A DNA stretch of 41,621 nucleotides, taken from positions 1 through 41,621 of the forward strand of contig JAFUUL010000100.1 in assembly GCA_017483805.1 (NCBI GenBank), in the 5' to 3' direction. Under the pieces are notes generated by a model. The model made no database searches and was not told the DNA's origin. It was given only the letters and a program-made list of their open reading frames with translations. Below, one piece after another: positions 20,294-39,715 of the stretch. The stretch is from Prevotella sp. (GTDB lineage: Bacteria; Bacteroidota; Bacteroidia; Bacteroidales; Bacteroidaceae). The translations under genes were made by a program, and so were the position numbers. Numbering within the stretch: the stretch's first letter is position 1; the number at the start of each line of letters is the position of its first letter.

Positions 20294-20455
20294 CTTACTT
20301 CACCAAAACTTGAACTTCGTTCGAGTTTGTTGGCGTTCGGAAATAAGAGTGAACTCTCATTTCTCTCACTTAATCACAAACTTCTTGCCGTTCTGGATGT
20401 ACAGACCGGGCTTCGTGATCTTGTTCACCTTCATACCGCTGATGGTGTAGATGGC
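20294..20455 (-). repeat. Long inverted repeat, left copy (3' end of left switch gene plus 3' untranslated region)
   Basis: On the minus strand this is about 90% identical to 29022-29184 on the plus strand. It covers the last 30 or so codons (IYTISGMKVNKITKPGLYIQ...) and about 70 bases past the stop. The untranslated part can form two hairpins in both copies. Confidence 0.8.
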
Positions 20456-23305
20456 ACCGTCGGTAGTGGCAGGAGTTGCAGTCGTGATGGGAGAGATACC
20501 AGTTACGGTGTTCTCAATATCAGTCAAGGCTTCTTTGAGGTCGTTGTAAGCATTGAGGATGTTCTTTAGCGACTTGGACTCTGCAGTCTGAGAGTTCGAC
20601 AGGCTCTTGAGCAGTTCCTCACCAGCAACCACGCGATTAGCATGGTTCAGGAAGCGAGCCAGACGCGGATATTGACCAGCAGTAGCATCTTCGGCTGCGG
20701 CCAACGTGGTCTGTGCCTTAGAAATTAGTGCTGCCATATCATCCTTTACGGCTGTCAGATATGCGGCTGCGGGACCGACATAGAGAATTTCATTGTCGGC
20801 AAAGCCAAAGGTGTTGGCACCTGCATTTGCAATATTGCCTTCTGTGCTCATACCAACTTCCAATTCTTCCTCGACATCTGTAGTCTTAACATACACAACC
20901 GTATAACGGCTCATGCGATAGCCCGTATAAGTCGTGCAGTTGTTCTTGGGATAGTAGTGACTGTGAACACGTACGGAGTCTGCATCACCATTAAGGCCAA
21001 AGAACATCTTGCACTCAGAAGCGTCAAACAGGGTGTCAGCAACCAATTCGTCTGTTGCATCAATGAATGTGAGCATTTTTGCATCAGATCCGCCTGATTC
21101 GTTGAAAGCGTAGGCGCTAGTATTGAATACATAGACACCTGCATCCTTAACCTTAATTGTCTGTACGGCCTTGTTGTTAGGTGATGCAGTGTTTCCACGC
21201 CAAGCAGCGATGTAGGTTGTGTGTGCTGCACCACGGTCAGCACTGTTGCCCCATTTGAATGCACCGTTTGCATTGTCTGTTGTGAGTGTCCAGTTGGATG
21301 TGTTCGTGTCAAAGTTTGCGTTCAGAAGGTTCTGGGCGATAGGATTCTCCTTAGAGGCTGTTGAGTTCAAGTAATCAACTCTGAGGTTGGCTATCTCTGT
21401 GTTCTTTTCGTCAAACTGAGCCTGGTCGCTTCCATCGCTACCGTCAACAGTTCCCTCTATCAGAGCCTTTGCCTGACTGACTGCAGTCTGCAGTGCAGAA
21501 CGACGGCTGGCATCGCCTTTACCTTCGTATGAGGTCAACGTCTCTTCTGCCTCGGCAACAGTAGCCTGCAGAGTCGTGAACGACTTGTTCAGATTGCTAT
21601 ATGCATTACGAGCAGAATTCAGAGCACGTACATACGACAAAACCAAATCAGAAATCTTGCTTCCCATGGCCAGACTGTCGCGAATGTCTTGATCTTTCAA
21701 AACCTTGCCTTCTGCATCAATGATCTCAAGAGATGCTTGATACAAAACATCGATAGAGTCACGCTTTGTTTTCAACTCTTCACGTCCCCATGGGAAACCA
21801 TCTGCCTTTGTCTTTACCATGTCTTCCTCGTCGATGGCTTTAATACGTTTGGCCACTTCTGCTTGCTGGAGAATAATTGCTTCAACTTCAGCCTTGAACT
21901 TGACATCGTCTTCTGTTTCTCCTAATCTGTAAAGTTTTGCGTTGCCAACGCGGAATGAACCGCCCTTGTATTTGTCATATCCAGGATAGTAAACACCGGC
22001 TGTCAGTTTCTCACCTTCTGCCAGATCAAAGATGACAACATATGTGTGGAAATTGCGAGTGTCAAGAGGGGCTGCTTCAGTTGAATATTTGAATGTTACA
22101 TTTTCTGTGTCGCTGTCATCGATGCCTGCGAAAATCTTAACACCAGGTATGGAGTCAATATAACTGATATTATATTCACTAGTGTAAGGGAATCCGAATA
22201 CATCAGCAGCAAACATATATTTTCCAGCGGCTAACCCCTCTTTCTGTACATAGCAGGCACCACGACCTAATTGGTAAGATCCGCTTGATTGAATGCTATA
22301 AGTGTAATATTCTTTACTCGTGGCATGGCGGTGTCCCCAGCGGTTGCCACTACCAGAATATCCGCGGAACTGCCAGTCGTTTTGAGAGTTCCCTGCCTTG
22401 CCTTCATTCCAGTTAGGCATATTGATAATTGCGGAATTTACTAAGCCGGCAGCAAACAGGTCTGTACCATTTGCTTTGAGTAGATTGTTTAATCCTTCGT
22501 TATAGGTTGTGATATAAGACTCTATTTCAGAAATGTCATCCAGAGAACCTTCTGCTGCCGTCTCAACCAGCCCTTTGAGATATGGATAAACGCCATTTTT
22601 GAAGTCATCCGGATCCTTTGTAAAGTTTTCGTTTTCAACGATGGCATCTGCAAATTCGAACATACGCTTCAGTGCACGATCATCGTAAACTGCGTTTGCC
22701 TTGCGGATTTCGATATTTGTAATCATTGTACCTGCGGCTAACTTCTCCAAATGCATAACTATATATTGGCCAGCCTCTGCATAGGCAGAGAAACAAAGTG
22801 TAGTCCAGTCAGTTCCATAACTAAGGGCCTGGGCCACATTGGTTACGGGAGCATCTGCAGTACTTGCTGCCTTGGTAAAGATACCATCTCCGTTAAGGAA
22901 AAAGTCAACAGCATTATTTCCTGCGGCTTTGCCTCCCTCTATAATGCTAGTTGTCCCAATGCTCTCACCTTTAATCTGCAGACTTATGACATAGTAGCCT
23001 CCATCGTTGATTTGCCAACTGTTGCAAAGCGGTTGGCTTGCATCGACTCCAAGTGTCTGCAGAGCGGCCTCTCCGTTAGGACCTACGCCTTGTACCAAGT
23101 CCCATTCAGTTGCACTTACACCAGTCTCCTTGTCGGCGCCGTACCAACCATCGCGATTGCTGGCGAAGTTGCCGTTCTTCACCAAATCGTCACCTGCGAT
23201 TTTGAACCTTTGTGAAACTGTGTAAGCATAGTCGCCCGGCTGGAAAGCGAACGACGTTGCTACAGTCAGCAGCGCAAAGGCTACCATAAGTAATCTTTTC
23301 TTCAT
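20366..23305 (-). CDS. Large secreted protein, left member of an inverted paralog pair
   Basis: The 979-residue protein has the signal peptide MKKRLLMVAFALLTVATSFA, identical to that of the gene at 26265. Residues about 40-200 (DLVKNGNFASNRDGWYGADKE...) look like a carbohydrate-binding galactose-binding-type jelly roll. A second such module lies around 300-460 (KYMFAADVFGF..., GVYYPGYDKYKGGSFRVGNAKLYRLG). Helical segments around 465-640 (ALNSARNAYSNLNKSF, AEAEETLTSYEGKGD) follow, then a third jelly-roll-like module from about 655 (NLLNANFDTNTSNWTLTTDN). The tail GAIYTISGMKVNKITKPGLYIQ is a sorting-type end. Homology to the right-hand paralog runs through the N-terminal half and the tail, while the last third differs. 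A clear promoter lies at 23415-23446. Function is unknown; surface or extracellular glycan binding is inferred. Confidence 0.82.
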   Translation of the reverse strand: MKKRLLMVAFALLTVATSFAFQPGDYAYTVSQRFKIAGDDLVKNGNFASNRDGWYGADKETGVSATEWDLVQGVGPNGEAALQTLGVDASQPLCNSWQINDGGYYVISLQIKGESIGTTSIIEGGKAAGNNAVDFFLNGDGIFTKAASTADAPVTNVAQALSYGTDWTTLCFSAYAEAGQYIVMHLEKLAAGTMITNIEIRKANAVYDDRALKRMFEFADAIVENENFTKDPDDFKNGVYPYLKGLVETAAEGSLDDISEIESYITTYNEGLNNLLKANGTDLFAAGLVNSAIINMPNWNEGKAGNSQNDWQFRGYSGSGNRWGHRHATSKEYYTYSIQSSGSYQLGRGACYVQKEGLAAGKYMFAADVFGFPYTSEYNISYIDSIPGVKIFAGIDDSDTENVTFKYSTEAAPLDTRNFHTYVVIFDLAEGEKLTAGVYYPGYDKYKGGSFRVGNAKLYRLGETEDDVKFKAEVEAIILQQAEVAKRIKAIDEEDMVKTKADGFPWGREELKTKRDSIDVLYQASLEIIDAEGKVLKDQDIRDSLAMGSKISDLVLSYVRALNSARNAYSNLNKSFTTLQATVAEAEETLTSYEGKGDASRRSALQTAVSQAKALIEGTVDGSDGSDQAQFDEKNTEIANLRVDYLNSTASKENPIAQNLLNANFDTNTSNWTLTTDNANGAFKWGNSADRGAAHTTYIAAWRGNTASPNNKAVQTIKVKDAGVYVFNTSAYAFNESGGSDAKMLTFIDATDELVADTLFDASECKMFFGLNGDADSVRVHSHYYPKNNCTTYTGYRMSRYTVVYVKTTDVEEELEVGMSTEGNIANAGANTFGFADNEILYVGPAAAYLTAVKDDMAALISKAQTTLAAAEDATAGQYPRLARFLNHANRVVAGEELLKSLSNSQTAESKSLKNILNAYNDLKEALTDIENTVTGISPITTATPATTDGAIYTISGMKVNKITKPGLYIQNGKKFVIK

Positions 23306-23361
23306 AATTGTTTAAATTTAGTTATTAATAAAAAACATATGTTTTAATAAATCTTAATTTT

Positions 23362-23385
23362 GTTGCATAGTTGGCGGCCAACTAT
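23362..23385. repeat. Left 24-base inverted repeat, candidate recombinase site
   Basis: On the minus strand it matches 26180-26203 at 22 of 24 positions. It is centred on a palindrome with 11-base arms (GCATAGTTGGC and its complement, 23365-23387). The layout of outer arms GCATAGTT/AACTATGC around a 7-base centre GGCGGCC fits a tyrosine-recombinase core site. It lies between the left gene's promoter and its start codon. Confidence 0.7.
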
Positions 23386-23414
23386 GCGAATTAGTAGTCT
23401 CGTATACGTGGCTG

Positions 23415-23446
23415 CAAAGATAGTGTGATTTTGCGAAAGCACCCAA
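23415..23446 (-). promoter_or_regulatory. Promoter facing the left switch gene, inside the putative invertible segment
   Basis: On the minus strand TTG (23446-23444), a 21-base spacer and TATCTTTG (23422-23415), followed by CAGCC. The box lies 30 bases inside the left inverted repeat, so an inversion between the repeats would redirect it to the right gene. Confidence 0.7.
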
Positions 23447-23486
23447 GGTTTTCTGATATTTTTTCCATATTTTTTGATTTTTTTAG

Positions 23487-25070
23487 TTATTCGGCAATCA
23501 TCCAGTCAGAGATGCTGCGGCTGTCGAGACTGAAACTGACGCCAGCCTTGATGACGCGGCGGTCTTCAGTTTTGTAGGGCAGGGCATAATTCTTGGAGTT
23601 AATCTGATTGAGGGCATCACGCGCTGTGCCGTTGATTTTCAGTTCCAGCACATAGGTGGTATCTGGCATGTGTACAACGATGTCGGCCCTGCCGCCGGCA
23701 CATTTCACTTGGGTGCGCACATAGACATTGAGCATCGAGAAGATCAGGTAGAGCGTATATTCATAGAATCCCTCTTTCGTAGTGGCTTCCTCAAGTTTCT
23801 TTTTGAATCCCTCAACGTAAGGAATGCCAGCCAGATAGGCCTGCATCTCGCGCAGAGCCAGGTCGAGGTCGTGATTCTTGAGAGCGCGCCAGAACTTCAG
23901 GGCAAAGCCCGTCTGCGTGTCGGCAGACTTGAGGCCAGTGTAGGCGGGCAGCAGCCCCTGGGTATAGCCTATGCGGACCTCCTGGTTGGGTATGGCCAGT
24001 GTGTAGAGTTCTGTCTCCCGATCGTAGCCTTTGATGGTTAGGTAGCCGCTCTGATAGAGCAGCGGCAGCGCATCGGCCATGTTTTCCGTCGGCTGGTCGA
24101 AGGCCGAAGCGGGAACTTCCAGCCTGTCTACTGACATGATGTCGGTGTGATAGTGCCGCAACTGCTGGATGAGGAAGGTGGGCGTGCCGCTCTCGAACCA
24201 GTAGTTGACTATTTCCCTCTGGTGGAAAGCCCTCAGCAGGCTGAACGGATTATAGATTTCATCGGAGTTTTCCGTGAAGTGGTAGCCGTCGTAGCGGGTC
24301 TTTAGTTTCAGGTGCATCTCCTCGTAGGTCAGTCCGCAGACCTCTGCCAGCCGGGCAATGTCTGTTCCAAGCACCGTGGCGAGTTCCTGTTCGGTGATGC
24401 CGCAGATACCGGAAAAGGCAGAGTCCATCGTCACGTTGGTCAGGTTGTTGATGGTGGAGAAGATGCTGAGTTGCGAGAACTTTGTGATGCCCGTGATAAA
24501 GCAGAACTTAATATAGGGGTCGAGCATCTTCAAGCGCTGGTAGAACTCCTGCATTACCTCGCGCCTCGTCTTGAGGTCTTCCTCTTCGTGCAGGACGTCG
24601 AGCAGCGGGGAATCATATTCGTCGATGATGATGGCCACGGGCCGACCGGTCTTCTCGCAGGCCCGCTGTACGACGCCCGAGAAGCGCATGCCCGGCGTCT
24701 GCTCCGACTCGTCGCGGCCATAGAGCGTCTCGTAAGGCTTGATGATGCGCTCCAGTTCCACTCTCACCAGTTCTGGCGGCATGTGTTTGGCACCGCTCAG
24801 ATCGAGATGGATGACGGGATACTGGATCCAGTCCTGCTCCAGTGCCGCCATCTTCAATCCCTGGAAGAGCGCCTGCTCTCCCCTGAAATAGGAGGCCAGC
24901 GTACTGGCCAGCAGCGACTTGCCAAACCGCCGGGGGCGGCTCAGGAAAATGTACTTGGAATAGTGGGCCAACTTCCACACAAGATTGGTCTTGTCTACAT
25001 AGACATAGCCTTCGCGGATCACCTCCGAGAAGGTCTGGATGCCAACGGGGTACTTTCTTTCTTCTGCCAT
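23487..25070 (-). CDS. AAA-ATPase-like protein with C-terminal PD-(D/E)XK domain (PF09820 + PDDEXK_9)
   Basis: The 527-residue protein opens with KYPVGIQTFSEVIREGYVYVDKT, the standard start of the AAA-ATPase_like family very common in Bacteroidales. A Walker A-like motif SRPRRFGKSLL lies near residue 40 and Walker B VAIIIDEYDSPL near 145; FITGITKFSQLSIFSTINNL is a sensor-like segment. The C-terminal nuclease-like domain has GGRADIVVHMPDTTYVLELKIN (near 470-490) with Asp and ExK intact, so this copy looks complete. The members' role is poorly known; defence or mobile-element functions have been suggested by distribution. The gene lies between the two inverted repeats, 120 bases after the recombinase, with its own promoter. 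Confidence 0.9.
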   Translation of the reverse strand: MAEERKYPVGIQTFSEVIREGYVYVDKTNLVWKLAHYSKYIFLSRPRRFGKSLLASTLASYFRGEQALFQGLKMAALEQDWIQYPVIHLDLSGAKHMPPELVRVELERIIKPYETLYGRDESEQTPGMRFSGVVQRACEKTGRPVAIIIDEYDSPLLDVLHEEEDLKTRREVMQEFYQRLKMLDPYIKFCFITGITKFSQLSIFSTINNLTNVTMDSAFSGICGITEQELATVLGTDIARLAEVCGLTYEEMHLKLKTRYDGYHFTENSDEIYNPFSLLRAFHQREIVNYWFESGTPTFLIQQLRHYHTDIMSVDRLEVPASAFDQPTENMADALPLLYQSGYLTIKGYDRETELYTLAIPNQEVRIGYTQGLLPAYTGLKSADTQTGFALKFWRALKNHDLDLALREMQAYLAGIPYVEGFKKKLEEATTKEGFYEYTLYLIFSMLNVYVRTQVKCAGGRADIVVHMPDTTYVLELKINGTARDALNQINSKNYALPYKTEDRRVIKAGVSFSLDSRSISDWMIAE

Positions 25071-25090
25071 GGCTCATTGCTTTTTCGATG

Positions 25091-25098
25091 CAAAAATA
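25091..25098 (-). promoter_or_regulatory. -7 box for the AAA-ATPase-like gene
   Basis: The minus strand reads TATTTTTG followed by CATCG, 20 bases before the ATG at 25070. No -33 box is certain. Confidence 0.5.
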
Positions 25099-25190
25099 CA
25101 AAAAATATCATAATAACGGGATAAATGGCTCATAAAATCTTCATTATTTGCAAAGTTTAGGACTTTCAAGCCGCCAGATACCACATTTTA

Positions 25191-26123
25191 TTATTTTCGC
25201 GTGCGCGAGAAGTGCTGGTCGAAGAGTTTCATGTCGTGGCTCAGTTTCTGCATCGTGATCTTGGCATAGATCTGGGTGGTGGTGATGTTGGTGTGGCCCA
25301 GTATGCGGCTGACGCTCTCGATGGGCATCCCGGCATTGAGGGCCATGACGGCAAAGGTGTGGCGGGCACAGTGGAACGTGATGTGCTTGGTGATGCCGCA
25401 ATGCGCCATCAGCCGCGGCATCTGGGCAGCCAGGGTGCGGTAGTTGACGGGTGCGAAGACGGTGCTGCCGCTGCCCCGATAGCGGTTGACGATGTCGAGG
25501 GCTTCCGGCAGCAGTCGCGTCACGAAGACCGTGTGGGTCTTCTGTCGGTGCCCCTGTATCCACTGTTCACCGTCGATGGTGCTGATGTCGGCAGGGCGGA
25601 GGTTGCGTATGTCGATATAAGACATACCGGTCAGTGCGGCAAAGACGAAGAGGTCGCGGGTATAGCGCAGTGCAGGCTGCGACAACCGGCAGTCCATGAG
25701 CAGCCGCAGTTCCCGTTCCGTCAGGTATTCGCGGTCGCGGATGTTCTTGCTGACGTGGAAGTCGGCAAAGGGGCTGGCCGCGAGCAACTGGCGCTGGCAG
25801 GCCCGGTGGACGACACCCTTCAGCATCTGGGTGAGCATCCAGATGGTGCCGGGCCTCATCTGCCGCTCGGTGCTTAGGTAGAGCGCATAGTCGCGGATGA
25901 ACTGGCCGGTGAGTTCCGTGAGCGGAATGTCTTGACGGTGCAGGACGTCGGTGAGAAAACGGGCCAGGCTCTGCCGCGACTGTCGCTGGCGGGTGTAGGA
26001 ACTGGCGGCCCTGTCCTTGCCCACTCGGCGGGCAAGTCTTTCGAGGTCGCAATCGTAGGTCTGCAGCAGTGACGGCTGGTCAGGGCTGCACGACTCCTCT
26101 TCTGAAACATAGTCTGTGTTCAT
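25191..26123 (-). CDS. Tyrosine recombinase (site-specific integrase), candidate invertase
   Basis: The 310-residue protein has an N-terminal SAM-like core-binding domain (about 40-125, YTRQRQSRQSLARFLTDVL, then FIRDYALYLSTER) and a C-terminal catalytic domain. Visible catalytic residues are Lys in GHRQKTHTVFVT (near 195), His and Arg in HCARHTFA (near 251-254), His in LGHTNITTTQIYAKI (near 275) and the nucleophile Tyr in QIYAKI. Box I reads ALTGMSYIDIRNL, with Ser where most relatives have the first catalytic Arg, as in the Bacteroides IntDOT group. It ends 120 bases before the AAA-ATPase gene and starts 57 bases from the right inverted repeat. In Bacteroides such Tsr-type recombinases invert promoters of surface proteins; that role is inferred here. 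It could instead be a leftover mobile-element integrase. Confidence 0.9.
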   Translation of the reverse strand: MNTDYVSEEESCSPDQPSLLQTYDCDLERLARRVGKDRAASSYTRQRQSRQSLARFLTDVLHRQDIPLTELTGQFIRDYALYLSTERQMRPGTIWMLTQMLKGVVHRACQRQLLAASPFADFHVSKNIRDREYLTERELRLLMDCRLSQPALRYTRDLFVFAALTGMSYIDIRNLRPADISTIDGEQWIQGHRQKTHTVFVTRLLPEALDIVNRYRGSGSTVFAPVNYRTLAAQMPRLMAHCGITKHITFHCARHTFAVMALNAGMPIESVSRILGHTNITTTQIYAKITMQKLSHDMKLFDQHFSRTRK

Positions 26124-26179
26124 AGTCGGAAGTGATTCAGGTGTACTTTTTGAGTAACACCTCGTTAAGTCTGTTTGGT

Positions 26180-26203
26180 ATAGTTGGCCGCCAACACTGC
26201 AAC
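26180..26203. repeat. Right 24-base inverted repeat, candidate recombinase site
   Basis: It matches the left repeat (23362-23385 on the other strand) at 22 of 24 positions, with an identical 16-base core including GTTGGC-C-GCCAAC. It lies 61 bases before the right gene's ATG. No TAnnTTTG box is present between the recombinase and the right gene; the nearest, TCTGTTTG at 26170-26177, misses one key base and has only 17 bases to a TTTG. Confidence 0.7.
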
Positions 26204-26264
26204 GGCCCTATCTATATAGACTACTTAATCATTCAATTGTTTAATAACTAAAAAAAATTATTTT

Positions 26265-29111
26265 ATGAAGAAAAGATTACTCATGGTGGCTTTTGCGCTG
26301 CTGACGGTAGCAACGTCGTTCGCTTACGAGATCGGCGACTATGCTTACAACACGACGCAGAGGTTCAAGATTACAGGTGAAAACCTCGTGGCCAACGGCA
26401 ACTTTGCCAATCAGAAGGATGGCTGGTATGGTGCCGATCCAGAGACAGCGCCCAATGCCGAAGTATGGGATCTGGTGCAGGGCGCCGGTCCTAACGGTGA
26501 GACTGTGCTACAGGCTATCTCTGTGGCAGATGGTCAGCCCCTGTGCAACAAGTGGACGCTGTCAGACGGTGGCTACTACATTGTGTCGTTCGACATCAAG
26601 GCCCTCAATGCCGGTTTTACCTCCATTCTGACGGCTGATGTTACCCCGGGCTCCAATGTAGCAGACTTCTTCCTCAACAGTGATGGCAACTTCACGAAGG
26701 TGGCTTCTACTGAAGAGGCACCTGTAGTGAATGTCGCTGCTGTTGCCAACTTCCCCCAGGAGGAGTGGAAGACCGTGGTGTTCGGCTTCACCGCTGAGAC
26801 CGGTCAGCAACTGGTGATGCACTTCGAGAAACTGCCTGAGGGAACTCAGATCACCAACATCGAGGTTCACAAGGCTGCTGAGGTGTACGACATCCGTATC
26901 GCCCAGAGCCGCATTGCCTTTGTGAAGACCCTGATGGAGATGCCGGAGTTCAACACCGAGGCTGCTCAGGATGCCAAGGCAAACCTGGAAGGTATCATTG
27001 GAATGGTGGAAGAGGCCATCGCTTCAGGCGAAATGGATGATCCCGGCAATGCAGAATCCCTGATGCTGGGACTTGAGGATGAGGGTGTGCAGCCTTTCAT
27101 GAGCATCACTTCTCGTCGTATGAACGACAAGTTGACCGGTACCGAGGATGTGGCATCGCTGGCTACTGTCGGTCGTGGTGCCAACCGTCCTGCTACATAC
27201 GCTAACCTCGACTTGGCCGGCGGCAACTGGGGCCATACCGGCAGTGCCGACTATCTGATGTCGGCCATCCAGAATGGCTATGCCCATACTGCTACTTATA
27301 CGGCTTTCAACACCAACTTCCCGAAGGGCCGCTATCTCTTCACTGCTGAAATCCGTAATGCCAACACCGGTAAGACCTCTTGGCCTTGCGAGCCCACCTT
27401 CAACCTGAAAAATGCCTGCAAGGTGTTCGTTGGTAACGACTCTATTGAAACCGATACTATCTTCGGAGAGAACTATCAGCGCATTCTGCACATCGGCGAT
27501 ATTGCTGAGGACGGACAGTTCCGTGCAGGCGTCTACTGGCCTGGTACCAGCAGCGGCGGTGCTTTCTTCATCAAGAATGTTGAGGTCTATGCGCTGGGCG
27601 ACGGTCCCCAGATTGAGGCCAATATCGCCCATATCGAGTCTTGGGTGGCCTTCAAGGCCCAGTGGGATGCTGCCACCAGCAACCGCCACACCCTGCACCT
27701 GAAGATTGGCAATGCCAACCTGCCTTGGGAGCAAGACTCCGTGAAGGCTGCAAGAGATATGTGGGATCCCTACTATCTGGCTATCGTCAACAAGGGTTGG
27801 GTGGCCGAGGACGGCAGCGATGCTGGTGTGGCTACTACCGAGGAACTGACGGAGTGGACTATTCCTCAGGGATTCTATCCCACGGTTGCCGAGGGTGAGG
27901 ATTCTACCTTCTACAATCGCTACAGTCAGTATGCCGTTGTGCGCGGCTATGGTGATGCCAGCGCATGGATTGAGGCTGCCAACAAGCCCTTCACCGACCT
28001 GGGCAATGCCATCGAGGCTGCCAAGGGCACACGCAATAATGGTGCTTATCTGACAGGTGACCGCGATACCTATAGGGCTGCCATTCTGGCTGCTCTCAAC
28101 ACGCTGAAGACCGTCCGTGAGACTACTACCGACGCTACCCGCGAGGCTGACACTGAGACTCTGACACAGGCTCTCGCCACGCTGAATGCTGCTACCGAGG
28201 CCTTCCTGGCTACTGTGTCCGTTGTGCCGTTCGTCGACATCGATTTCTCTCAGGGTGTTACCGAGAATGTCAATCCGGAAGAAACTGAGCCACAAGAGTC
28301 GTATTTCTTCCAGGGTACGAAAGGCCGTATGTATACCAGTGCCTGGGGTGAAACCAATAACAGTGGTGCCTACTTCGTTCTTGGCTATGGTGAGGAATAT
28401 CTGGATGTCCTCCGCGTTGGCAATGGTAGTGCTACTGTTTATCTGAGCGAGGAAGAGCAGCCTGCTGAAGACGAGGCCATCCGCTTTACCTTCGACTTCT
28501 TCCATGGCAACCTTTCAGGTAAATTTGCTGGTGTGGAGTTAAGGAACGCTGCCGATGAGCGTGTAGCCGGTTTCTACTTGAACCGTTATAATGGTAGTCT
28601 GTCTTACAATGACTTCAACGATGTGCTGACCAATGGTGGCACGGGTATGAACGTCCTTCAGTATGCCACTGGCATTGGTTCTGGTTCTGCCTCTAATGCC
28701 GCTATTGCTGCCGAGAACAACCGTACGTCTTACGATCTGGTGGTCGACTATCTGAACAAGACCCTGAAGGGCACTATCGTCAATCCGCAGAGGGGAACCA
28801 ACGAGGGCGCAGAGATGCCGTTCCGTGCAGACATCACTGATCATAAGATTGTGAAGTTCGTGCTGCTGAGCAACTATAACAATCAGGATCGTCGCTGCTG
28901 GTTCGACAACCTGAAGATCTCGAAGTACAAGTTGCTGAGTGTCGAGGAAGACATCACCGAGCCTACTTGGGCAGAGGTCGTCGATGGCATCCAGAATGCC
29001 ACGGTTGCTACGCCCAACGCCGCCATCTACACCATCAGCGGTTTGAAGGTGAACAAGATCACCAAGCCCGGCCTGTACATCCAGAACGGCAAAAAGTTTG
29101 TGGTTAAGTGA
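26265..29111 (+). CDS. Large secreted protein, right member of an inverted paralog pair
   Basis: The 948-residue protein has the same signal peptide as the left gene (MKKRLLMVAFALLTVATSFA). The N-terminal module (NLVANGNFANQKDGWYGADPE, about 42-200) and the second module (KGRYLFTAEIRNA, GVYWPGTSSGGAFFIKNVEVYALG, about 300-450) are homologous to it. Helical repeats follow near 570-645 (TYRAAILAALNTLKTVRETT). The last third differs: from about 655 (FVDIDFSQGVTENVN...) it looks like a lectin/concanavalin-type sandwich (AIRFTFDFFHGNLSGKFAGVELRN) rather than the left gene's jelly roll. The tail IYTISGLKVNKITKPGLYIQ is shared. No good promoter precedes it in this orientation. Extracellular binding is inferred; no catalytic motif is seen. 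Confidence 0.82.
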   Translation: MKKRLLMVAFALLTVATSFAYEIGDYAYNTTQRFKITGENLVANGNFANQKDGWYGADPETAPNAEVWDLVQGAGPNGETVLQAISVADGQPLCNKWTLSDGGYYIVSFDIKALNAGFTSILTADVTPGSNVADFFLNSDGNFTKVASTEEAPVVNVAAVANFPQEEWKTVVFGFTAETGQQLVMHFEKLPEGTQITNIEVHKAAEVYDIRIAQSRIAFVKTLMEMPEFNTEAAQDAKANLEGIIGMVEEAIASGEMDDPGNAESLMLGLEDEGVQPFMSITSRRMNDKLTGTEDVASLATVGRGANRPATYANLDLAGGNWGHTGSADYLMSAIQNGYAHTATYTAFNTNFPKGRYLFTAEIRNANTGKTSWPCEPTFNLKNACKVFVGNDSIETDTIFGENYQRILHIGDIAEDGQFRAGVYWPGTSSGGAFFIKNVEVYALGDGPQIEANIAHIESWVAFKAQWDAATSNRHTLHLKIGNANLPWEQDSVKAARDMWDPYYLAIVNKGWVAEDGSDAGVATTEELTEWTIPQGFYPTVAEGEDSTFYNRYSQYAVVRGYGDASAWIEAANKPFTDLGNAIEAAKGTRNNGAYLTGDRDTYRAAILAALNTLKTVRETTTDATREADTETLTQALATLNAATEAFLATVSVVPFVDIDFSQGVTENVNPEETEPQESYFFQGTKGRMYTSAWGETNNSGAYFVLGYGEEYLDVLRVGNGSATVYLSEEEQPAEDEAIRFTFDFFHGNLSGKFAGVELRNAADERVAGFYLNRYNGSLSYNDFNDVLTNGGTGMNVLQYATGIGSGSASNAAIAAENNRTSYDLVVDYLNKTLKGTIVNPQRGTNEGAEMPFRADITDHKIVKFVLLSNYNNQDRRCWFDNLKISKYKLLSVEEDITEPTWAEVVDGIQNATVATPNAAIYTISGLKVNKITKPGLYIQNGKKFVVK

Positions 29112-29184
29112 GTGAAATGAGAGTTCGCTCTTATTTCCGAACGTGAACAAACTCGAACGAAGTTCAAGTTTGTGGTGAAGTAAG
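29022..29184 (+). repeat. Long inverted repeat, right copy (3' end of right switch gene plus 3' untranslated region)
   Basis: Partner of 20294-20455. After the stop it holds two hairpins: ATGAGAG-TTCG-CTCTTAT (29117-29134) and a 12-base stem with one mismatch around GAA (29147-29173). A second in-frame-like ending, FKFVVK-stop, is encoded at the far end, resembling a duplicated gene tail. Confidence 0.8.
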
Positions 29185-29216
29185 AGACCAACACAACGAG
29201 GTTAAATATCATTTTC

Positions 29217-29254
29217 AAAATCGGGAGCGTCATCACGGATGCTCCCGATTTTTG
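29217..29254 (+). terminator. Rho-independent terminator after the right switch gene
   Basis: AAAATCGGGAGC (29217-29228) pairs with GCTCCCGATTTT (29241-29252), and T-rich sequence follows. The 303-base gap 29112-29414 holds, in order, the structured repeat end, this terminator, the next promoter and a leader hairpin. Confidence 0.85.
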
Positions 29255-29334: not shown

Positions 29335-29344
29335 TACCCGAAAA

Positions 29345-29414: not shown

Positions 29415-32255
29415 ATGAAAAAGTTCCTTTTCTGTATCTCTCTCGTTTTGACGGGACTGATGACCTCTTGCGTAGATAAGTACGAAGAGGTGGATGCAGA
29501 CTCCAAACCCTCGTGGCTCGGCGGAAGCATCTATTCAGAACTGAAGAATCCTAACCAGGAGAGGCTTACGGGAACATTTACGAACTACCTGCGGTTGATC
29601 GACGACCTCGGCTATGACGAGGTGCTGAACCGCACGGGTTCGAAGACGGTGTTCCCTGCCAATGACGAAGCCTTCGAGCGATTCTTCAAAAGTAATGACT
29701 GGGGCGTCAGCAGTTATGAGCAGTTGTCGCTGGCTCAGAAGAAGTTGTTGCTCTACTCTTCAATGCTCGACAATGCCCTTCTGTTGGGTTTGCTGCCTAA
29801 TGTCAGCAACGGTACCAATACTCCCGACAAGGGCGAGGCTGTCAAGCATGCTACCAATGTGAGTGTGATAGACACCATCCAGCATATCGCCGATGCAGCA
29901 GGTATGCCACAGGGCAACCGCTACTGGGAGAAGTACTACGACCGCGGTATCGACTTGGTGACAGACGCCACCATCCCCATGATGGTCCACCTGACCCGCG
30001 AGTATATGCTGCACAACAACATCACCACCCTGGGCGACGAGAGTGACTTTGCCGTACTGACCGGCACACCTTTCACCGAGGGCACGGCTTATATCTTCAA
30101 CAACCAGGTTATCAATGGCGATGTCACCTGTCAGAATGGCTACATCCACCAGTTGGACAATGTGCTCGTTCCGCCGGGCAACATGGCCCAGGTGTTGCGC
30201 CGCCACAGCAAGATGACCTACTTCAGCCGCATTCTGGACCACTATGCAGCGCCTTACTATGATGCGACGACCACTCGCCAGTATAACGACTGGGCCAAGG
30301 CTAACAACCTGCCCCAGAAGGACAGCATCTTCCAGATGCGCTACATGAGCACCAACTCACAGGACGTCCAGTTGACGCGCGACCCGAACGGCACGGAGGT
30401 TTCTTCTACCTTCATACTGTCCTACGACCCAGGTTGGAACCAGTACTCTCCCATGCCGGGTACAAGTGCCATCAAGGACATCGGTGCCTTCTTCGTGCCT
30501 GATGACAATGCTGTGAAGGATTACTTCCTGCCCGGCGGTGGCGGCTCACACCTGATTGACATCTATGGCGGACTGCCCAACACCGAGGCCAACCTGATGG
30601 TGAACCTCGACTCGCTGCACTCCAAGAAGCCCGGCATTCTGGCTTCGTTCACCAAGAACCTGATGAAGACCAACTTCTCCACCACCGTTCCTTCGAAGTT
30701 TGACAACGTAACGAACGATGCCTCGGAGAACATGGGACTGAAACTGTCGCTGATCGACCGCAAGGACGACGGCAAGTACGACATTACCATTGCCAACAAC
30801 GGTGTCGTCTACCTGATCAACGAGATGATCGTTCCCGATGAGTATCGCTCGGTGATGGCTCCTGCCTCTGAGTATCCTGACATGAAGATCATGAATTGGC
30901 TGATTCAGGATCCGTACATCCGCAACACGATGAATCCTTCTTATACGGTCAAGTACGCTGACTTCTACTACTACCTGAAAGCCATGAGCGCCAACTATGC
31001 TTTCTTCATTCCCGAGGACAAGGCTTTCGACTTCTACTATGTTGATCCCGCTACGCTGGGTCACGTGGCCAGCGATGGCATCACGCCGCGTCCCGACGTG
31101 CTCCATATCTACTACGACTCGCTGGCCACACGTGAGCCTTACGTGAAGGCCACACGCTACTACTATGATCCGACGACTGGCGGGATTGACCTCGCTTCGG
31201 CACGCAACGTCAGCAGCCCGGTGGAAATCAATTCGCAATTGGAAGACATTCTGAACTATCACACGCTGGTGCTCGACAGCGGCGCAGTGATCGGCCAGAA
31301 CCATTACTACAAGACCAAGCATGGCGGCGAAGTCTATGTGGATGGCAGTTCTGAGGGCGGACGTGTTATCTCCGGCTCTCAGATTGAGAATCCAGACTTG
31401 CTGCCTGCTCCGCGCATCAAGAACATCTACGGCGAGAAGAACGGTCACGCCTATCGTATAGACCGTCTCATCCAGCCGCCTCACAAGAGTGTCTATGCCG
31501 TCCTGGATGAAAACAAGGATGTGTTCAGTGAGTTCCTCGATGTCTGCACCGGCTTCCAGGCTACCGAACTGTTGGCATGGGCCGGCATCTCCGATGATGA
31601 GAAGGTGGATGCCAACGGCAGAAAACTGGGCTTCTCCGAGCAGGATGCCTATATCGTCTTCACGCGTAATTATAAATTAGGTGCAACCAGCATCGCCAAT
31701 GCTTGTCTGGACTACAACGTGAAGATGTTCAACACCTATAACTATACACTCTTTGCTCCCGACAATACGGCCATGGCCAAGGCATACGCCGACGGTCTGC
31801 CTAAGTGGACGGACATCGTCGCACTGGGTGAGCCTTATCTGGAGATGGAGGAACACGAGGTTACACCTCAAGAGCAGGCTGACAAGGATGCGGCCAAGAA
31901 GATGATCACCCAGATTCGCGACTTCGTGCGCTATCATTTCGTGACCAACTCTGTTTATGCCGACAATACCATTGAGGGTGGTGACTACCAGTCGCTCAGT
32001 TCCGATGAAAGAGGTATTGCCAAGGAAATCGGAATCTCTGGCGGCAACGGCCAGTTGATTCTTTCGGACAGAGCCGGTCATACGGTGACTGTCAATGCCG
32101 ATGATAATAACCGTGTGGTCAACAAGATGGCGCGCGACTACTGGCTCAACGCTGCGAAGACCACGGCCACGGCCATCGAGACATCGTCGTTCTGTGCTGT
32201 CCATCAGATTTCAGAACCGCTCTATGGCAACAAATCCGGCAAATTCAACGAATAA
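29415..32255 (+). CDS. Surface lipoprotein with several FAS1 (fasciclin) domains
   Basis: The 946-residue protein has a lipoprotein signal (MKKFLFCISLVLTGLMTSC; lipobox LMTSC). FAS1 H1-type motifs are visible at about residue 77 (TVFPANDEAF), 528 (YAFFIPEDKAF) and 776 (YTLFAPDNTAM), and H2-type ends at about 245 (GYIHQLDNVLVPPGN) and 465 (GVVYLINEMIVPDEY), so there are three or four FAS1-like units. FAS1 domains mediate adhesion or ligand binding. As the first gene of the SusCD operon, 31 bases before SusC, it occupies the place of an outer-membrane accessory binding protein. Most such proteins in Bacteroidetes are annotated only as fasciclin domain-containing. The ligand is not known. Confidence 0.88.
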   Translation: MKKFLFCISLVLTGLMTSCVDKYEEVDADSKPSWLGGSIYSELKNPNQERLTGTFTNYLRLIDDLGYDEVLNRTGSKTVFPANDEAFERFFKSNDWGVSSYEQLSLAQKKLLLYSSMLDNALLLGLLPNVSNGTNTPDKGEAVKHATNVSVIDTIQHIADAAGMPQGNRYWEKYYDRGIDLVTDATIPMMVHLTREYMLHNNITTLGDESDFAVLTGTPFTEGTAYIFNNQVINGDVTCQNGYIHQLDNVLVPPGNMAQVLRRHSKMTYFSRILDHYAAPYYDATTTRQYNDWAKANNLPQKDSIFQMRYMSTNSQDVQLTRDPNGTEVSSTFILSYDPGWNQYSPMPGTSAIKDIGAFFVPDDNAVKDYFLPGGGGSHLIDIYGGLPNTEANLMVNLDSLHSKKPGILASFTKNLMKTNFSTTVPSKFDNVTNDASENMGLKLSLIDRKDDGKYDITIANNGVVYLINEMIVPDEYRSVMAPASEYPDMKIMNWLIQDPYIRNTMNPSYTVKYADFYYYLKAMSANYAFFIPEDKAFDFYYVDPATLGHVASDGITPRPDVLHIYYDSLATREPYVKATRYYYDPTTGGIDLASARNVSSPVEINSQLEDILNYHTLVLDSGAVIGQNHYYKTKHGGEVYVDGSSEGGRVISGSQIENPDLLPAPRIKNIYGEKNGHAYRIDRLIQPPHKSVYAVLDENKDVFSEFLDVCTGFQATELLAWAGISDDEKVDANGRKLGFSEQDAYIVFTRNYKLGATSIANACLDYNVKMFNTYNYTLFAPDNTAMAKAYADGLPKWTDIVALGEPYLEMEEHEVTPQEQADKDAAKKMITQIRDFVRYHFVTNSVYADNTIEGGDYQSLSSDERGIAKEIGISGGNGQLILSDRAGHTVTVNADDNNRVVNKMARDYWLNAAKTTATAIETSSFCAVHQISEPLYGNKSGKFNE

Positions 32256-32286
32256 CTAACAACAGCGAACTCAAAAGACTAAGACA

Positions 32287-35200
32287 ATGAATATTCAAAG
32301 AGTCATATTAACCGCCCTGCTCGGGCTCATCTGCCAGTTTGCAGCGGCTCAGGGAACGGTCTCGGGTACGTTGAGCGACAATGAGGGTCCCATCATGATG
32401 GGTACCGTCTGTGAGGTCGATGCCAACAATCGTATTGTGAACAATGCTACGACCGACTTCAACGGTAACTTCTCGATGAAGATCACCAATACGAAGAATA
32501 AACTCCGCTTCTCCTATGTAGGCGACAAGACACAGACCGTGGCTATCGGCGACAGAAAGGTGTTTAAGATCAAGTTGGAACCCGCCAACGCCCAGTTGAA
32601 AGAAGTAAAGGTCGTGGGCCGCAAAGGCAGTTCCGGCGGCCTGATGCTGCAGAAGAAGGAGATTGCCGTCTCTCAGCAGACCATGAACATGCAGGAGGTG
32701 GAAGGTCTGGCCTTCACCTCTGCCGACGAGGCCCTGCAGGGCCAGATTGCCGGTCTCGACATCGTGTCTAACTCTGGTAACCTCGGTGCAGGCACTCAGA
32801 TGCGTCTGCGTGGTGTCACCACGCTTTCGGCCAATGCCAACCCGCTGATTGTCGTCGATGACAAGATCTTCGACAACCCCGACGAGGACTTCGACTATGC
32901 CAATGCCGACGAGGAGCAGTATTCATCGCTGCTGTCGGTCAACGTGGAGGATATCGCCTCAATCACCGTGTTGAAGGACGCCGCCGCAACGGCTGTCTGG
33001 GGCTCCAAGGGTGCCAACGGTGTGATTATGATTACCACCAAGCGTGGTAGCCGTGGCAAACCCCGCGTCAACTTCTCCTATAAGTTCACCGGCACCTGGA
33101 TGCCCGATGGCTACAGCCTGCTGAACGGTGACGACTACACCATGCTGATGAAGGAGGAATTCTATAATCCCACGCAGCAGGCCGACCGCACCACCTCGAT
33201 GGCTGAGTTGAACTACGACAAGTCTGGCTATGCCGACTGGGAGAACTGGAACAACAACACCGACTGGGTGGACGCCGTGAAGCAGTTCGGCGGTATGCAC
33301 GACTTCAGCGTCAACCTGACGGGTGGCGGTCAGAAGGCTACCTTCCGTATCTCTGCCGGTTACAAGCACCAGACCGGTACCGTCATCGGACAGAAGTTCC
33401 AGCAGTTCACCACGCGTATGGCACTGGACTACAATGTGTCAGACCGCATTCGCTTCATCACGAACTTCGCCCTGACCTATACGAACAACGACAAGAACTA
33501 TGCAGAGAAGGTGAATGGCGTCAGCCATCCCAGCCTGCTCTCTATCGCCCAGAACCAGGCTCCTAACATGGCCATCTACCGTCAGGACGGCAACGGCAAT
33601 GACACCGACGAGTACTTCCTGATGAACCCGACGGCTCCCAACCGTAACACCACGCCTTACGACGGCTTCTATTCCAGTTACGACCTGTCGGCCCTCTATG
33701 GACTGGGTAACCCCGTGGCCATCGCCGATCAGGCATGGATCAAGGACCAGACCTATCGTCTGACGCCTGACTTCACCATCAAGTACGAGATTCTGGGCAC
33801 TGAGCCCGAGACGAGCCGACTGACCTTCAACGGTCGTGTAGACTTCGATATCTTTGCCGAGTCGAAGCCCACCTTCTGGTCGGCTGCCCTCACCAACCGT
33901 CTGTGGACGGACTCGGAGTATAACCTGACAACCAACTACGAGTTCAACCGCATGAAGATCGGCGGTCGTGCAGAGTTGGTCTTCACGCCTTACTTCAAGA
34001 ACCGTGACTGGTCGGCAACGATGTTGCTGCGCTACGAGATGAACACGCAGAACTCCAACAACCAGACCGTTGTGATGGGCCACCTGCCTAACGGCATCAC
34101 CTCATCGACCGTCGATGCCTCGCCCGGCACGCCCAGCAGCGGCAACGGACGCTCTAACTCGCAGAACGTGCTCTACAATGGTCACGTCAGTTACCTGGAC
34201 GGCCGCTACAGCCTCGGCTTCTCGCTCCGTGCTGATGGTGACTCGAAGTTCGGTCCGAAGCACAAGTGGGCTTACTTCCCCGGTGTGTCGTTGCGCTACA
34301 ACATCATCGACGAGCCGTTCATGAAGGGCATTAAGGATGTGGTTTCCATGATTGGCCTCCGTGCTTCGTGGGGTATTGTGGGTAAGGCACCGGATAAGGA
34401 CTACCTCTTCTATAATACCTATAACACTTCGGCCGGCCAGTACGGTAAGGGCTCTACCAATCTGGCAACATTTGCTACACTCGACGGTCTGAAACTCGAT
34501 GACCTGCGCTGGGAGAAGACCATGAGTTATAACCTCGGTTTCAACTTGGGCTTCTTCAACGACAAGTACGAGATTGACTTCGACTATTACTACAAGGACA
34601 CCAAGGACCTGCTGATGGCAAATGTCAATATCCCGTCGTTCACTGGTTTCGGCAGCCTGGCCTATTCTAACGTAGGACGCATGACTAACGAAGGTTGGGA
34701 GTTGAACTTCAATGCCAAGAAATTCATCAAGATTGGTAAGTTCTCTGCCGACTTCGGACTGAACATTGCCCAGAACTCCAACTTGCTGAAGGAGATGGAC
34801 GAGAGCGTGCTTACCTCTATCAACGGTACGACATGGGATGCCTCCAAGCGCGGCACCTATCCCGTCCGTGTGCAGTTGAACAACTCGCTCGGCTCTATCT
34901 ACGGTTTCCATTACAAGGGCGTCTATCAGTACACCTACGACTATCTGGAGAACTACCAGAAGGAGAACAACCTGAATCCTACTCAGTACGAAAACTGGAT
35001 CAACGACTTCCTGGCTGAGGGCCATACGGCTCCCGTGGCAGTCGGTGCCGACGGCAAGGTCATCATGGACAACAATACCGGCAAGCCCCAGCATCAGAAG
35101 TATGCCTACGGCACGGCCAGTGAGTATGACTTCCAGGGTGGTGATGCCATCTATGAGGATATCAACCACGACGGACAGATCAACGCACTCGACATTGTCT

Positions 35201-35706
35201 ACTTGGGCAACTCGCTGCCTAAGGTAAACGGTGGTTTCAACATCTCGCTCAACTATGGCCGCTGGTTTGTGAAGGGTCGCTTCAACTATCGTTTCGGCAA
35301 CAAGGTGGTGAACACCGCCCGCATGAGCCTGGAGAAGATGTACGACACCAACAACCAGAGCACCACGGTGAACTACCGCTGGCGCAAGGATGGCGATGTG
35401 ACGCCGATGCCGCGCGCTATGTATCAGTCGGGCTGGAACTGGCAGAACTCCGACCGCTATGTAGAGGACGGTGGTTTCGTCCGCTTCCAGAACCTGCAGG
35501 TGGGCTATCGCTTCGACAATAAGATGATCAAGAAGTGGGGCCTGAACCAACTTCAGGCTTATGCTTCGCTGAACAACCTCTACGTCTGGACCAAGTACAG
35601 CGGTATAGACCCCGAGGTGTCGCAGAAGGGCTACAACCCTGCTATCGACGATGCCAAGACACCGCGCTCCAAGCAGTTTACGTTCACACTTAATTTCGGA
35701 TTCTAA
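32287..35706 (+). CDS. SusC/RagA-like TonB-dependent outer-membrane transporter
   Basis: The 1139-residue protein has a signal peptide (MNIQRVILTALLGLICQFAAAQ). A carboxypeptidase-regulatory-like beta domain (about 23-95, GTVSGTLSDNEGPIMMGTV) is followed by the plug: LKEVKVVGRKG, ALQGQIAGLDIVSNSGNLGAG, MRLRGVTTLSANANPLIVVDD, ITVLKDAAATAVWGSKGANGVIMITTKRG (about 105-260). The remainder is the beta barrel, ending in the outer-membrane signature FTFTLNFGF. Length is normal for SusC proteins (about 1000-1150). It imports ligands delivered by the SusD partner 13 bases downstream, using TonB energy. The substrate cannot be told from the sequence; there is no neighbouring CAZyme. Confidence 0.97.
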   Translation: MNIQRVILTALLGLICQFAAAQGTVSGTLSDNEGPIMMGTVCEVDANNRIVNNATTDFNGNFSMKITNTKNKLRFSYVGDKTQTVAIGDRKVFKIKLEPANAQLKEVKVVGRKGSSGGLMLQKKEIAVSQQTMNMQEVEGLAFTSADEALQGQIAGLDIVSNSGNLGAGTQMRLRGVTTLSANANPLIVVDDKIFDNPDEDFDYANADEEQYSSLLSVNVEDIASITVLKDAAATAVWGSKGANGVIMITTKRGSRGKPRVNFSYKFTGTWMPDGYSLLNGDDYTMLMKEEFYNPTQQADRTTSMAELNYDKSGYADWENWNNNTDWVDAVKQFGGMHDFSVNLTGGGQKATFRISAGYKHQTGTVIGQKFQQFTTRMALDYNVSDRIRFITNFALTYTNNDKNYAEKVNGVSHPSLLSIAQNQAPNMAIYRQDGNGNDTDEYFLMNPTAPNRNTTPYDGFYSSYDLSALYGLGNPVAIADQAWIKDQTYRLTPDFTIKYEILGTEPETSRLTFNGRVDFDIFAESKPTFWSAALTNRLWTDSEYNLTTNYEFNRMKIGGRAELVFTPYFKNRDWSATMLLRYEMNTQNSNNQTVVMGHLPNGITSSTVDASPGTPSSGNGRSNSQNVLYNGHVSYLDGRYSLGFSLRADGDSKFGPKHKWAYFPGVSLRYNIIDEPFMKGIKDVVSMIGLRASWGIVGKAPDKDYLFYNTYNTSAGQYGKGSTNLATFATLDGLKLDDLRWEKTMSYNLGFNLGFFNDKYEIDFDYYYKDTKDLLMANVNIPSFTGFGSLAYSNVGRMTNEGWELNFNAKKFIKIGKFSADFGLNIAQNSNLLKEMDESVLTSINGTTWDASKRGTYPVRVQLNNSLGSIYGFHYKGVYQYTYDYLENYQKENNLNPTQYENWINDFLAEGHTAPVAVGADGKVIMDNNTGKPQHQKYAYGTASEYDFQGGDAIYEDINHDGQINALDIVYLGNSLPKVNGGFNISLNYGRWFVKGRFNYRFGNKVVNTARMSLEKMYDTNNQSTTVNYRWRKDGDVTPMPRAMYQSGWNWQNSDRYVEDGGFVRFQNLQVGYRFDNKMIKKWGLNQLQAYASLNNLYVWTKYSGIDPEVSQKGYNPAIDDAKTPRSKQFTFTLNFGF

Positions 35707-35719
35707 GCATTTCAAGATT

Positions 35720-37474
35720 ATGAAGAAATATATATTAATGTTCGTTTCCAGTTTGATGCTGGTGTCGTGTCTCGACACTATCATCCTGCCTGACGACAAA
35801 ACCGTAGATGAGGATTTCTGGAAGACCAAGGAGGATGTCTCGTCCATGGTCAATGCTGCCTATTCCGCCATGTCGTCGGATGACGTGATTGCCCGTCTGT
35901 TCGTGTGGGGCGACTACCGCACTGATGAACTCAATCGCACATCGTCTGCCGATATCAGCGCTACAACCACGGCTCTCGACGAAATCGCTGCTGTGAACAT
36001 GCAGACCACCAATATGTATGGCAGTTGGTCGGCTTTCTATAGTGTTATCAACCGCTGCAACATCGTGTTGGACCGTGCGGCTGACGTGATGGCTGTTGAC
36101 CCCAACTATACCGATGGTGACTATCAGGTGGACCGTTCGCAGATGCTGGCACTGCGTGCCCTCTGCTACTTCTACCTGGTGCGCAACTTCCGTGACGTGC
36201 CTTACATCACGGAGTCTTACATGAACAGCAGTCAGAACACGCAGGTGGCGCAGTCTGCTCCCGCTTACATTCTGGAGCGTTGTATTGCCGACCTGGAGGA
36301 GGCCTCCAAGGCTCCGCTGAATGCCTCTGGTTATAACAAGTCTGACTGGCGCCGCGTCGGCTGGATGACCAACGATGCCATCCACACGCTGCTGGCCGAC
36401 ATCTATCTGTGGCGTGCCTCTGTCACGCATAATGCTGCCGACTACGAACAGTGTATCAACTACTGCGACCAGGTGATCGAGTCCAAGCAGAAGCAGCACG
36501 TGCGTGGCCGTAATGAACTGACGGAGAAAGAGTATCCTCTGGCCGATGCCAGCGACATCTACAAGGCTCTGTTCGTCACACAGAACGCAGAGGAGAGCAT
36601 TTTTGAGATACAGTCGCGCAGCAATTCTGCCGTTTGCTCTTATTACTACAAGTATAAGAAAGAGAGTGGCACTGCTGGCGAGGGCTGGCTGAAGGCAACC
36701 ACGCTTTTCGCCAATACCCACGATAATTACACGGCCACTACTTTCCTGAGCGATGCTACACTCTACAGTTCTAAGGATATGCGTTACTATGGCGCTTGCT
36801 ACATCCCCAGCACGGGAGAAGAGTCTTACCATGTGCGCAAGATGATTTCTCAGACGCCCGTCCAAACCAAGGTGACCACGAAGACGCGTGAGTCTTACGA
36901 TTACGGAGGCTTGGATAGAAACCTCAATGTGTATCGCCTGACCGATGTGATGCTCATGAAGGCTGAGGCACTAGTTCAGCAAGTGGACACTGCTCTCTCT
37001 ACAACCGAGCAGCAGGATTTGCTCCGCGTGCCCTTCAATCTGATTCAGGCCGTCAATACGCGTGCCCTCCATCAGGAAAATCTGGCTGACTCCATGAAGT
37101 GGACAACCTATAGGACTCAGACCAAGGAACAGTTTGAGAGAATGGTCATGCAGGAGCGTCTGCGTGAGTTCTGCTTCGAGGGACGCCGCTGGTACGACCT
37201 GATGCGCTACAACTACCGTCACATCGACGGTGCTGACTACAGCCGCACCATGGGTGAACTGGTGGATGAAGGTGTTCAGATGCCGGCCAACTACACTGAG
37301 ATGCTGAAACTGATGACCCGTATGCGTGGCACGGAGGCCAGCGGTGTGCAGGCCAAGATGGCCAACGAGGCTTATCTCTATATGCCTGTGCCCAACAGCG
37401 ATATCATCGTCTGCCCGTTGCTGCGTCAGAACCCTGCGTATAAGGATACAAATGAATACGAGAAAAACTATTAA
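35720..37474 (+). CDS. SusD/RagB-like outer-membrane lipoprotein
   Basis: The start at 35720 was chosen because it begins a lipoprotein signal (MKKYILMFVSSLMLVSC); an open frame extends 23 codons further into susC but without a signal. The 584-residue product has the SusD helical core: EDFWKTKEDVSSMVNAAYSAM near 37, NRCNIVLDRA near 112, ALRALCYFYLVRNF near 145, the TPR-like DAIHTLLADIYLWRA near 220, and the C-terminal RLREFCFEGRRWYDLMRYNY and YLYMPVPNSDIIVCP. SusD proteins sit as a lid on the SusC barrel and bind the ligand. It is preceded by SusC (13-base gap) and followed by two FAS1-type genes. Confidence 0.96.
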   Translation: MKKYILMFVSSLMLVSCLDTIILPDDKTVDEDFWKTKEDVSSMVNAAYSAMSSDDVIARLFVWGDYRTDELNRTSSADISATTTALDEIAAVNMQTTNMYGSWSAFYSVINRCNIVLDRAADVMAVDPNYTDGDYQVDRSQMLALRALCYFYLVRNFRDVPYITESYMNSSQNTQVAQSAPAYILERCIADLEEASKAPLNASGYNKSDWRRVGWMTNDAIHTLLADIYLWRASVTHNAADYEQCINYCDQVIESKQKQHVRGRNELTEKEYPLADASDIYKALFVTQNAEESIFEIQSRSNSAVCSYYYKYKKESGTAGEGWLKATTLFANTHDNYTATTFLSDATLYSSKDMRYYGACYIPSTGEESYHVRKMISQTPVQTKVTTKTRESYDYGGLDRNLNVYRLTDVMLMKAEALVQQVDTALSTTEQQDLLRVPFNLIQAVNTRALHQENLADSMKWTTYRTQTKEQFERMVMQERLREFCFEGRRWYDLMRYNYRHIDGADYSRTMGELVDEGVQMPANYTEMLKLMTRMRGTEASGVQAKMANEAYLYMPVPNSDIIVCPLLRQNPAYKDTNEYEKNY

Positions 37475-37477
37475 AGC

Positions 37478-37485
37478 AAAGGAGG
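37478..37485 (+). promoter_or_regulatory. Strong Shine-Dalgarno site before the second FAS1 gene
   Basis: AAAGGAGG lies 7 bases before the ATG at 37493. Such purine-rich sites are rare in Bacteroidetes and are not seen before the other genes in this operon. Confidence 0.5.
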
Positions 37486-37492
37486 AAAGACA

Positions 37493-39679: not shown

Positions 39680-39715
39680 TGCAACTGAATATTGATAAAA
39701 GAAAATAGAATAGTT

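Follow-up and report, generated by a model that had tools for sequence, protein, structure and literature searches.

In the Hin/fljBA system of Salmonella, a serine recombinase gene and a promoter lie together inside an inverted segment that turns one operon on or off, and in the sap system of Campylobacter fetus a single promoter between divergent paralogues is inverted to choose between them by RecA-dependent homologous recombination, with no dedicated recombinase in the segment. For Bacteroides fragilis, Weinacht reportedly described inversion by Tsr15 and Tsr19 in 2004, and Nakayama-Imaohji is said to have described SusC/SusD inversion by Tsr0667, a tyrosine-type recombinase, in 2009. Promoter inversion and SusC/SusD inversion occur in Bacteroides, global invertases included (PMC4747536, PMC12632263, PMC10939037, PMC11852207). 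Tsr0667 is presented there as a global invertase whose shufflon-type inversions affect three clusters plus nine further regions, and Tsr19 as also inverting a distant promoter between ON and OFF states (both PMC4747536); the B. fragilis Tsr0667 SusC/SusD inversion and an inversion varying the surface layer genes of C. fetus both appear in PMC11852207, and the sap genes are treated in PMC3887049. Here we analyse a 41,621-nt stretch of Prevotella sp. DNA (GenBank assembly GCA_017483805.1, contig JAFUUL010000100.1; the whole stretch is hereafter called the window), in which the segment 23376-26189 is very probably a self-contained, site-specific inversion switch for A/B expression of two secreted paralogues, PL and PR.

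In its assembly, which totals 3.6 Mb in 199 contigs (completeness 91.74%, contamination 7.21%), the window is contig C185, and its orientation is that of this single assembly. PL and PR are divergent, and the 2959-nt gap between them contains an AAA/PDDEXK gene and a tyrosine recombinase gene. The features on which the argument turns are as follows.

23376..26189, no strand: candidate invertible segment, from left-site centre to right-site centre (outer flanks alike and inner flanks not in 4/4 loci, by gapped score)
23362..23390, no strand: candidate left recombination site, nearly palindromic about 23376 (matches the right site, inverted, at 25/29 positions)
26175..26203, no strand: candidate right recombination site, near-palindrome, centre 26189 (same basis as the left site)
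23415..23422, minus strand: -7 box TATCTTTG, the sole clear outward promoter, now directed towards PL (TAnnTTTG consensus match)
25191..26123, minus strand: tyrosine recombinase, 310 aa, putative cognate invertase (Pfam, conserved residues, clade)
23487..25070, minus strand: AAA-ATPase_like / PDDEXK_9 protein, 527 aa, probable passenger (Pfam; not seen in the other 12 paired segments)
20366..23305, minus strand: paralogue PL, secreted, 979 aa, presumably ON in the assembly (promoter box upstream)
26265..29111, plus strand: paralogue PR, secreted, 948 aa, presumably OFF in the assembly (no upstream box; relatives in other genomes)

We propose that the internal tyrosine recombinase acts on the two near-palindromic sites, 70-75 nt upstream of the divergent paralogues, and that it would cut in the palindrome centre, inverting 23376-26189. 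In the assembled orientation the single outward promoter, 117 nt before PL, would drive PL; after inversion it would stand about 122 nt before PR (117 - 70 + 75), and PL would face the recombinase 5′ side, which carries no recognised promoter. One paralogue would be expressed at a time, to the exclusion of the other, and the switch is probably active in the strain.

The two sites form an inverted repeat whose first 24 bases match at 22 positions and whose core of 16 bases is identical. Its score of 21 was not reached once when the two 250-nt upstream regions were dinucleotide-shuffled 400 times (best score 18). The site centre lies at near-equal spacing from the two start codons, 70 nt from that of PL and 75 nt from that of PR, and nowhere else in the assembly is the 23-base palindrome present, even with up to 3 mismatches allowed. 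Each arm is near-palindromic over 23 bases, so the pair qualifies as a direct repeat as well as an inverted one. The left arm has the form 11 + 1 + 11 with perfect 11-base arms, and its central base is G on the plus strand, that of the right site being C. The left site would be fully symmetrical but for this base, which may therefore set the orientation; the sites may also permit excision. Besides the 29-nt site, an 87-nt stretch at the start codons (78 positions matching) is common to both sides, and either of the two may be the one at which inversion takes place.

The recombinase belongs to the Phage_integrase family of tyrosine recombinases (Pfam PF00589, 1e-21; PF13102, 6e-10) and is not of the serine type found in Hin-type invertases. 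Its reading frame is intact, and H251, R254, H277 and Y286 are invariant in the eight aligned members. Promoters were sought as TAnnTTTG, the Bacteroidales -7 consensus, in the 420 nt before each start codon, each hit being a consensus match and not a mapped start. An earlier note, drawn from the letters of this DNA alone, had described divergent paralogues with a 24-base inverted repeat (22/24, 16-base core), a tyrosine recombinase and an AAA/PDDEXK gene between the repeats, a clear promoter towards the left gene and a right gene lacking a proper -7 box. The repeat stands and extends to 29 bases, Pfam bears out both intervening genes, TATCTTTG is present on the minus strand at 23415-23422, and the 420 nt upstream of PR contain no TAnnTTTG.

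To place the locus in a wider context, we searched for relatives of the recombinase in 200 and then 398 genomes of the genus, plus one genome per GTDB species; the resulting locus counts are lower bounds. The relatives are of two kinds, many longer and integrase-like (frames often of about 400 aa) and fewer of about 300-350 aa, and in a tree of 20 sequences the short recombinases form one clade (100/100). At least 13 loci, the window and 12 others, carry a short recombinase between two divergent paralogues; the layout, which the earlier note did not recognise, recurs in the genus and is not unique to the window. Four are non-SusC pairs (the window, G129 = L067, G170 = L068 and G354 = L220) and nine are SusC-like pairs (L069, L070, L072, L073, L074, L087, L094, L217 and L218), the SusC-like label resting in L069 and L072, the two tested with Pfam, on a TonB plug domain and in the others on sequence similarity, N-terminus and size, and the label SusD for the next gene on position and size. 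The count leaves out the one-sided L071 and L219 and L221, which ends at a contig end, and treats L088, L090, L091, L092 and L089 as the same contigs as L070, L217, L073, L074 and L219. One mapped set of 80 loci included six with a divergent paralogue pair, all among the first eight listed; the other 72 (L095-L166, some ending at contig ends, frames mostly about 400 aa) showed no such pair in the flank. Among plasmid records, 161 matched the recombinase, all below 60% identity.

All four non-SusC loci have the common core GTTG[GC]CCGCCAAC, centred 67-94 nt from both start codons (70/75, 92/94, 67/67 and 89/88 nt on the two sides), and their recombinases form one clade (100/99). A wider pattern drawn from the eight sites of these loci gave 12 matches in 8 of the 398 genomes, its reversed control none, and inverted pairs of it occurred in four genomes only, namely those with the window's recombinase clade. 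The four single matches comprise three within long reading frames and one in G287, where it precedes a recombinase-less PR relative. In all four loci, the two flanks score positively for gapped similarity on the outer side of the site and negatively on its inner side; ungapped flank identity in L067 is equal outside and inside (15 and 15 of 60). In the SusC-like loci other repeats stand close to the start codon, several of these loci having ATACTTAAGTAT, for example.

TAnnTTTG lies on the recombinase 3′ side in 13/13 paired loci, with the other side lacking it in 11/13, and the one-sided L219 fits this polarity. Because promoter and recombinase share one segment, this regularity is a structural rule of the cassette and does not amount to 13 independent proofs of switching.

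Comparison across species revealed opposite facing at related loci. The same operon lies on the promoter side in G149 and on the silent side in G035, with its genes in the same order (SusC-like 79% identical, the next gene 75%, then 40% and 76%) and two additional genes in between in G149. The recombinases of these two loci are 65% alike and belong to one subclade; on their other sides the two loci have non-orthologous partner operons. Five genes (58-82% identity) display the same contrast between G103 and G341, qualified by promoter boxes on the opposite side to that expected in G103 and a stop in the recombinase of G341. The window's promoter is directed away from the fasciclin gene, and its counterparts in G129, G170 and G354 are directed at that gene. 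In the X/Y quartet, X faces the promoter in L087 and L094 and Y in L069 and L218; these two states follow recombinase subclades, and we dropped the quartet as decisive proof of inversion, relying in its place on the G149/G035 and G103/G341 pairs. Where the earlier note had called for orientation to be compared in related genomes, opposite facing was found between orthologous loci of different species and not within one strain. Together with the 13-locus layout, the clade-linked site and the flank similarity that ends at the site, it forms comparative evidence that supports that note's proposal of a recombinase-driven promoter switch.

The window's own genome contains a second short-recombinase locus, L072 (contig C20, 1139-9057), between two SusC-like proteins that are 99.5% identical over 1091 aa, with a -7 box inside the repeat on both sides. 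As this locus has its own recombinase and repeats in the same genome, enzyme-site specificity is directly comparable there.

PL and PR share an identical first 20 aa, are 36% alike over 554 columns and reach 74% over the last 43 residues, a conserved C-terminal tail that we take to resemble a type IX secretion system (T9SS) sorting signal. Neither has a Pfam or NCBIfam family at the cut-off; PL gives a weak FIVAR match (0.0011), and a PDB profile search yielded a single weak hit on the C-terminal tail (0.0005), besides two that were weaker still. The 3′ ends of PL and PR carry a 184-nt inverted repeat of 88% identity that extends beyond the stop codons (20306-20489 / 28988-29171), at which homologous recombination could invert both genes together.

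Several observations weigh against an active two-way switch. At 36% overall likeness PL and PR are not simple alleles, and no TAnnTTTG occurs in the 200 nt before the window's recombinase. The silent side is unclean in L067 (two matches) and in L072 (one on each side, inside the repeat), and the one-sided G103 locus (L071) breaks the polarity rule, its SusC-like gene having its boxes on the recombinase 5′ side and no partner. The recombinase frames of G129 and G341 are each interrupted by an in-frame TAG. Judged against the PR-clade gene, the window does not differ in state from G129, and separate installation of the X and Y arrangements is possible, because their opposite states are split by recombinase subclade. 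Finally, G287 (L239, ~9734) has an intact single site between an ordinary promoter box and its PR relative, with no recombinase match within 19.5 kb.

The last observation bears on an alternative in which the palindromes are operators or 5′-UTR hairpins of duplicated promoters and the recombinase and AAA gene an unrelated insertion. It agrees with the position of the site between promoter and start codon and with its folding as a 10-bp hairpin in the PL leader, as well as with the G287 site and with degenerate look-alikes, judged by eye, at two more PR relatives, in G023 and G155. To evaluate it we used as controls 23 PR-family loci drawn from 37 other genomes with PR relatives (besides G000 and G129), the remaining 14 of those 37 entering the site pattern search only. 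The flanks of these 23 loci contain no recombinase match (in 14 the flank extends at most ~1.5 kb beyond the matched stretch), and all 23 have TAnnTTTG upstream, 45-100 nt before the start codon in 20 of them. The site core is missing at 22 of these 23 loci, which weakens the operator or leader-hairpin explanation. Site pairs, moreover, occur only with the window's recombinase clade, PR has no TAnnTTTG within 420 nt for an operator to act on, and the same arrangement recurs with different repeats in the SusC-like loci; Rfam returned no family at threshold within 20000-30000. We consider this explanation improbable. The G287 site is possibly a relic of a lost switch: the PR relatives of G287, G023 and G155 share a broad clade of 11 (96/96, fork drawn open) with the G129 gene that adjoins fasciclin, and this grouping would fit decay after switch loss, a fit that is not proof.

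Decay is also the core of a second alternative, namely that the window holds a former switch now locked, with a silent or dead recombinase and PL simply on. The lack of a recognised recombinase promoter speaks for it, as do signs of decay in relatives, both the TAG codons in G129 and G341 and the recombinase-less site or remnants in G287, G023 and G155. In L067 (G129) the TAG falls near codon 191 of 289 of the recombinase (10909-11775), and the G129 switch may be locked. The window's own recombinase, however, keeps an intact frame with the residues conserved in its clade, and both sites keep the identical 16-base core. We regard locking as unlikely here, though less so than the operator explanation; it overlaps the switch interpretation, and the likelihoods of the two are not exclusive. 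Least probable of all is an integrase-type mobile element inserted between the paralogues, with the repeats as its ends. The long sister-clade tyrosine recombinases look like integrases, and the segment carries an AAA/PDDEXK gene, yet the short clade sits between divergent paralogues in at least 13 loci, flank similarity ends at the site in the four loci examined, and a normal promoter box, not a split empty site, is found at PR relatives that lack the element. An inversion switch is the interpretation we retain.

The AAA/PDDEXK gene (Pfam PF09820, 2e-63; PF08011, 7e-17; no PADLOC match) is probably a passenger. It was not seen in the segments of the other 12 paired loci, 10 of which have no extra frame of 80 aa or more, and its relatives lie scattered at many other places in the genus; we rejected it as a part of the mechanism. 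The earlier note's nuclease cargo does lie within the segment, as that note described. Extra frames of at least 80 aa occur in three of the 13 segments: the window, L068 (a DUF6169 protein) and L073. The L073 segment (G149, 5689-9294) encodes a VapE-like protein and an AAA_14/DUF4143 protein, the latter matching PADLOC PDC-S01 at 1.5e-98.

Beyond the segment, one further feature adjoins PR.

29415..41524, plus strand: neighbouring fasciclin / SusC-like / SusD-like gene cluster (first gene with its own promoter-like box)

Since the fasciclin gene to the right of PR has its own TATCTTTG, the cluster may be expressed independently of the switch. All four site-sharing loci have a relative of the cluster's first gene close to the pair. 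On the other side of the window, the gene at 18365-19387 has a relative (71%) in G129 between a PR-like gene and the fasciclin gene; within the limits applied, neither Pfam, NCBIfam nor PADLOC returned a match for the window gene.

A broader interpretation, which we advance tentatively and consider doubtful as a whole, is that these loci are portable A/B selector cassettes combining a single-base orientation rule with excision and a coupling of cargo to defence. Each cassette may run from one site through recombinase, optional cargo and outward promoter to the other site, with a co-evolved palindromic site of its own, and may ensure that one, and only one, of two surface modules is always on. 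For the window, a single central base may set the orientation rule, the same sites perhaps also allowing excision. The cargo place, occupied by AAA/PDDEXK here and by the AAA_14/DUF4143 defence candidate and VapE-like protein in G149, may couple surface switching to defence.

The host genus is abundant in guts and rumens and has been little studied genetically. If the proposed switch is real, the genus would possess a compact, testable binary switch, and programmed inversion would extend from SusC/SusD and capsules to another class of secreted proteins. Its ON and OFF states could be read from sequence by a rule of thumb in which the recombinase 3′ side is the promoter side (13/13 paired loci, one one-sided exception). 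As in described invertible promoters, inverted repeats bound the promoter in the window, the recombinase is intact and the site pairs follow its clade. Bacteroides is already known for invertible promoters and for SusC/SusD inversion; among the papers listed in a literature search, no title or abstract opening described a two-paralogue selector of this kind, a weak negative.

Tsr0667, like the proposed switch, inverts DNA to set which genes are expressed, SusC/SusD genes in its case; PL and PR match no Pfam family at its cut-off, and nine sister loci have SusC-like pairs. The locus differs in that Tsr0667 acts globally, whereas the site pair found here is a local one, each segment containing a recombinase; with its palindrome at only two places in the assembly, the window does not resemble a Tsr0667-type shufflon. 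It resembles Tsr15 and Tsr19 in having a tyrosine recombinase beside an invertible promoter affecting surface molecules, and differs from Tsr19, which sets ON and OFF states, in that the promoter would be handed between two paralogues; the layout of Tsr15 may overlap with that of the window. As in Hin, the recombinase gene and promoter lie inside the segment, but Hin is a serine recombinase turning one operon on or off, whereas the window pairs a tyrosine recombinase with two paralogues. With sap the window shares a single promoter between two divergent paralogues, although sap concerns S-layer proteins, depends on RecA and has no dedicated recombinase in its segment. What looks new is the combination of a two-paralogue selector with its own recombinase, acting on non-SusC secreted proteins.

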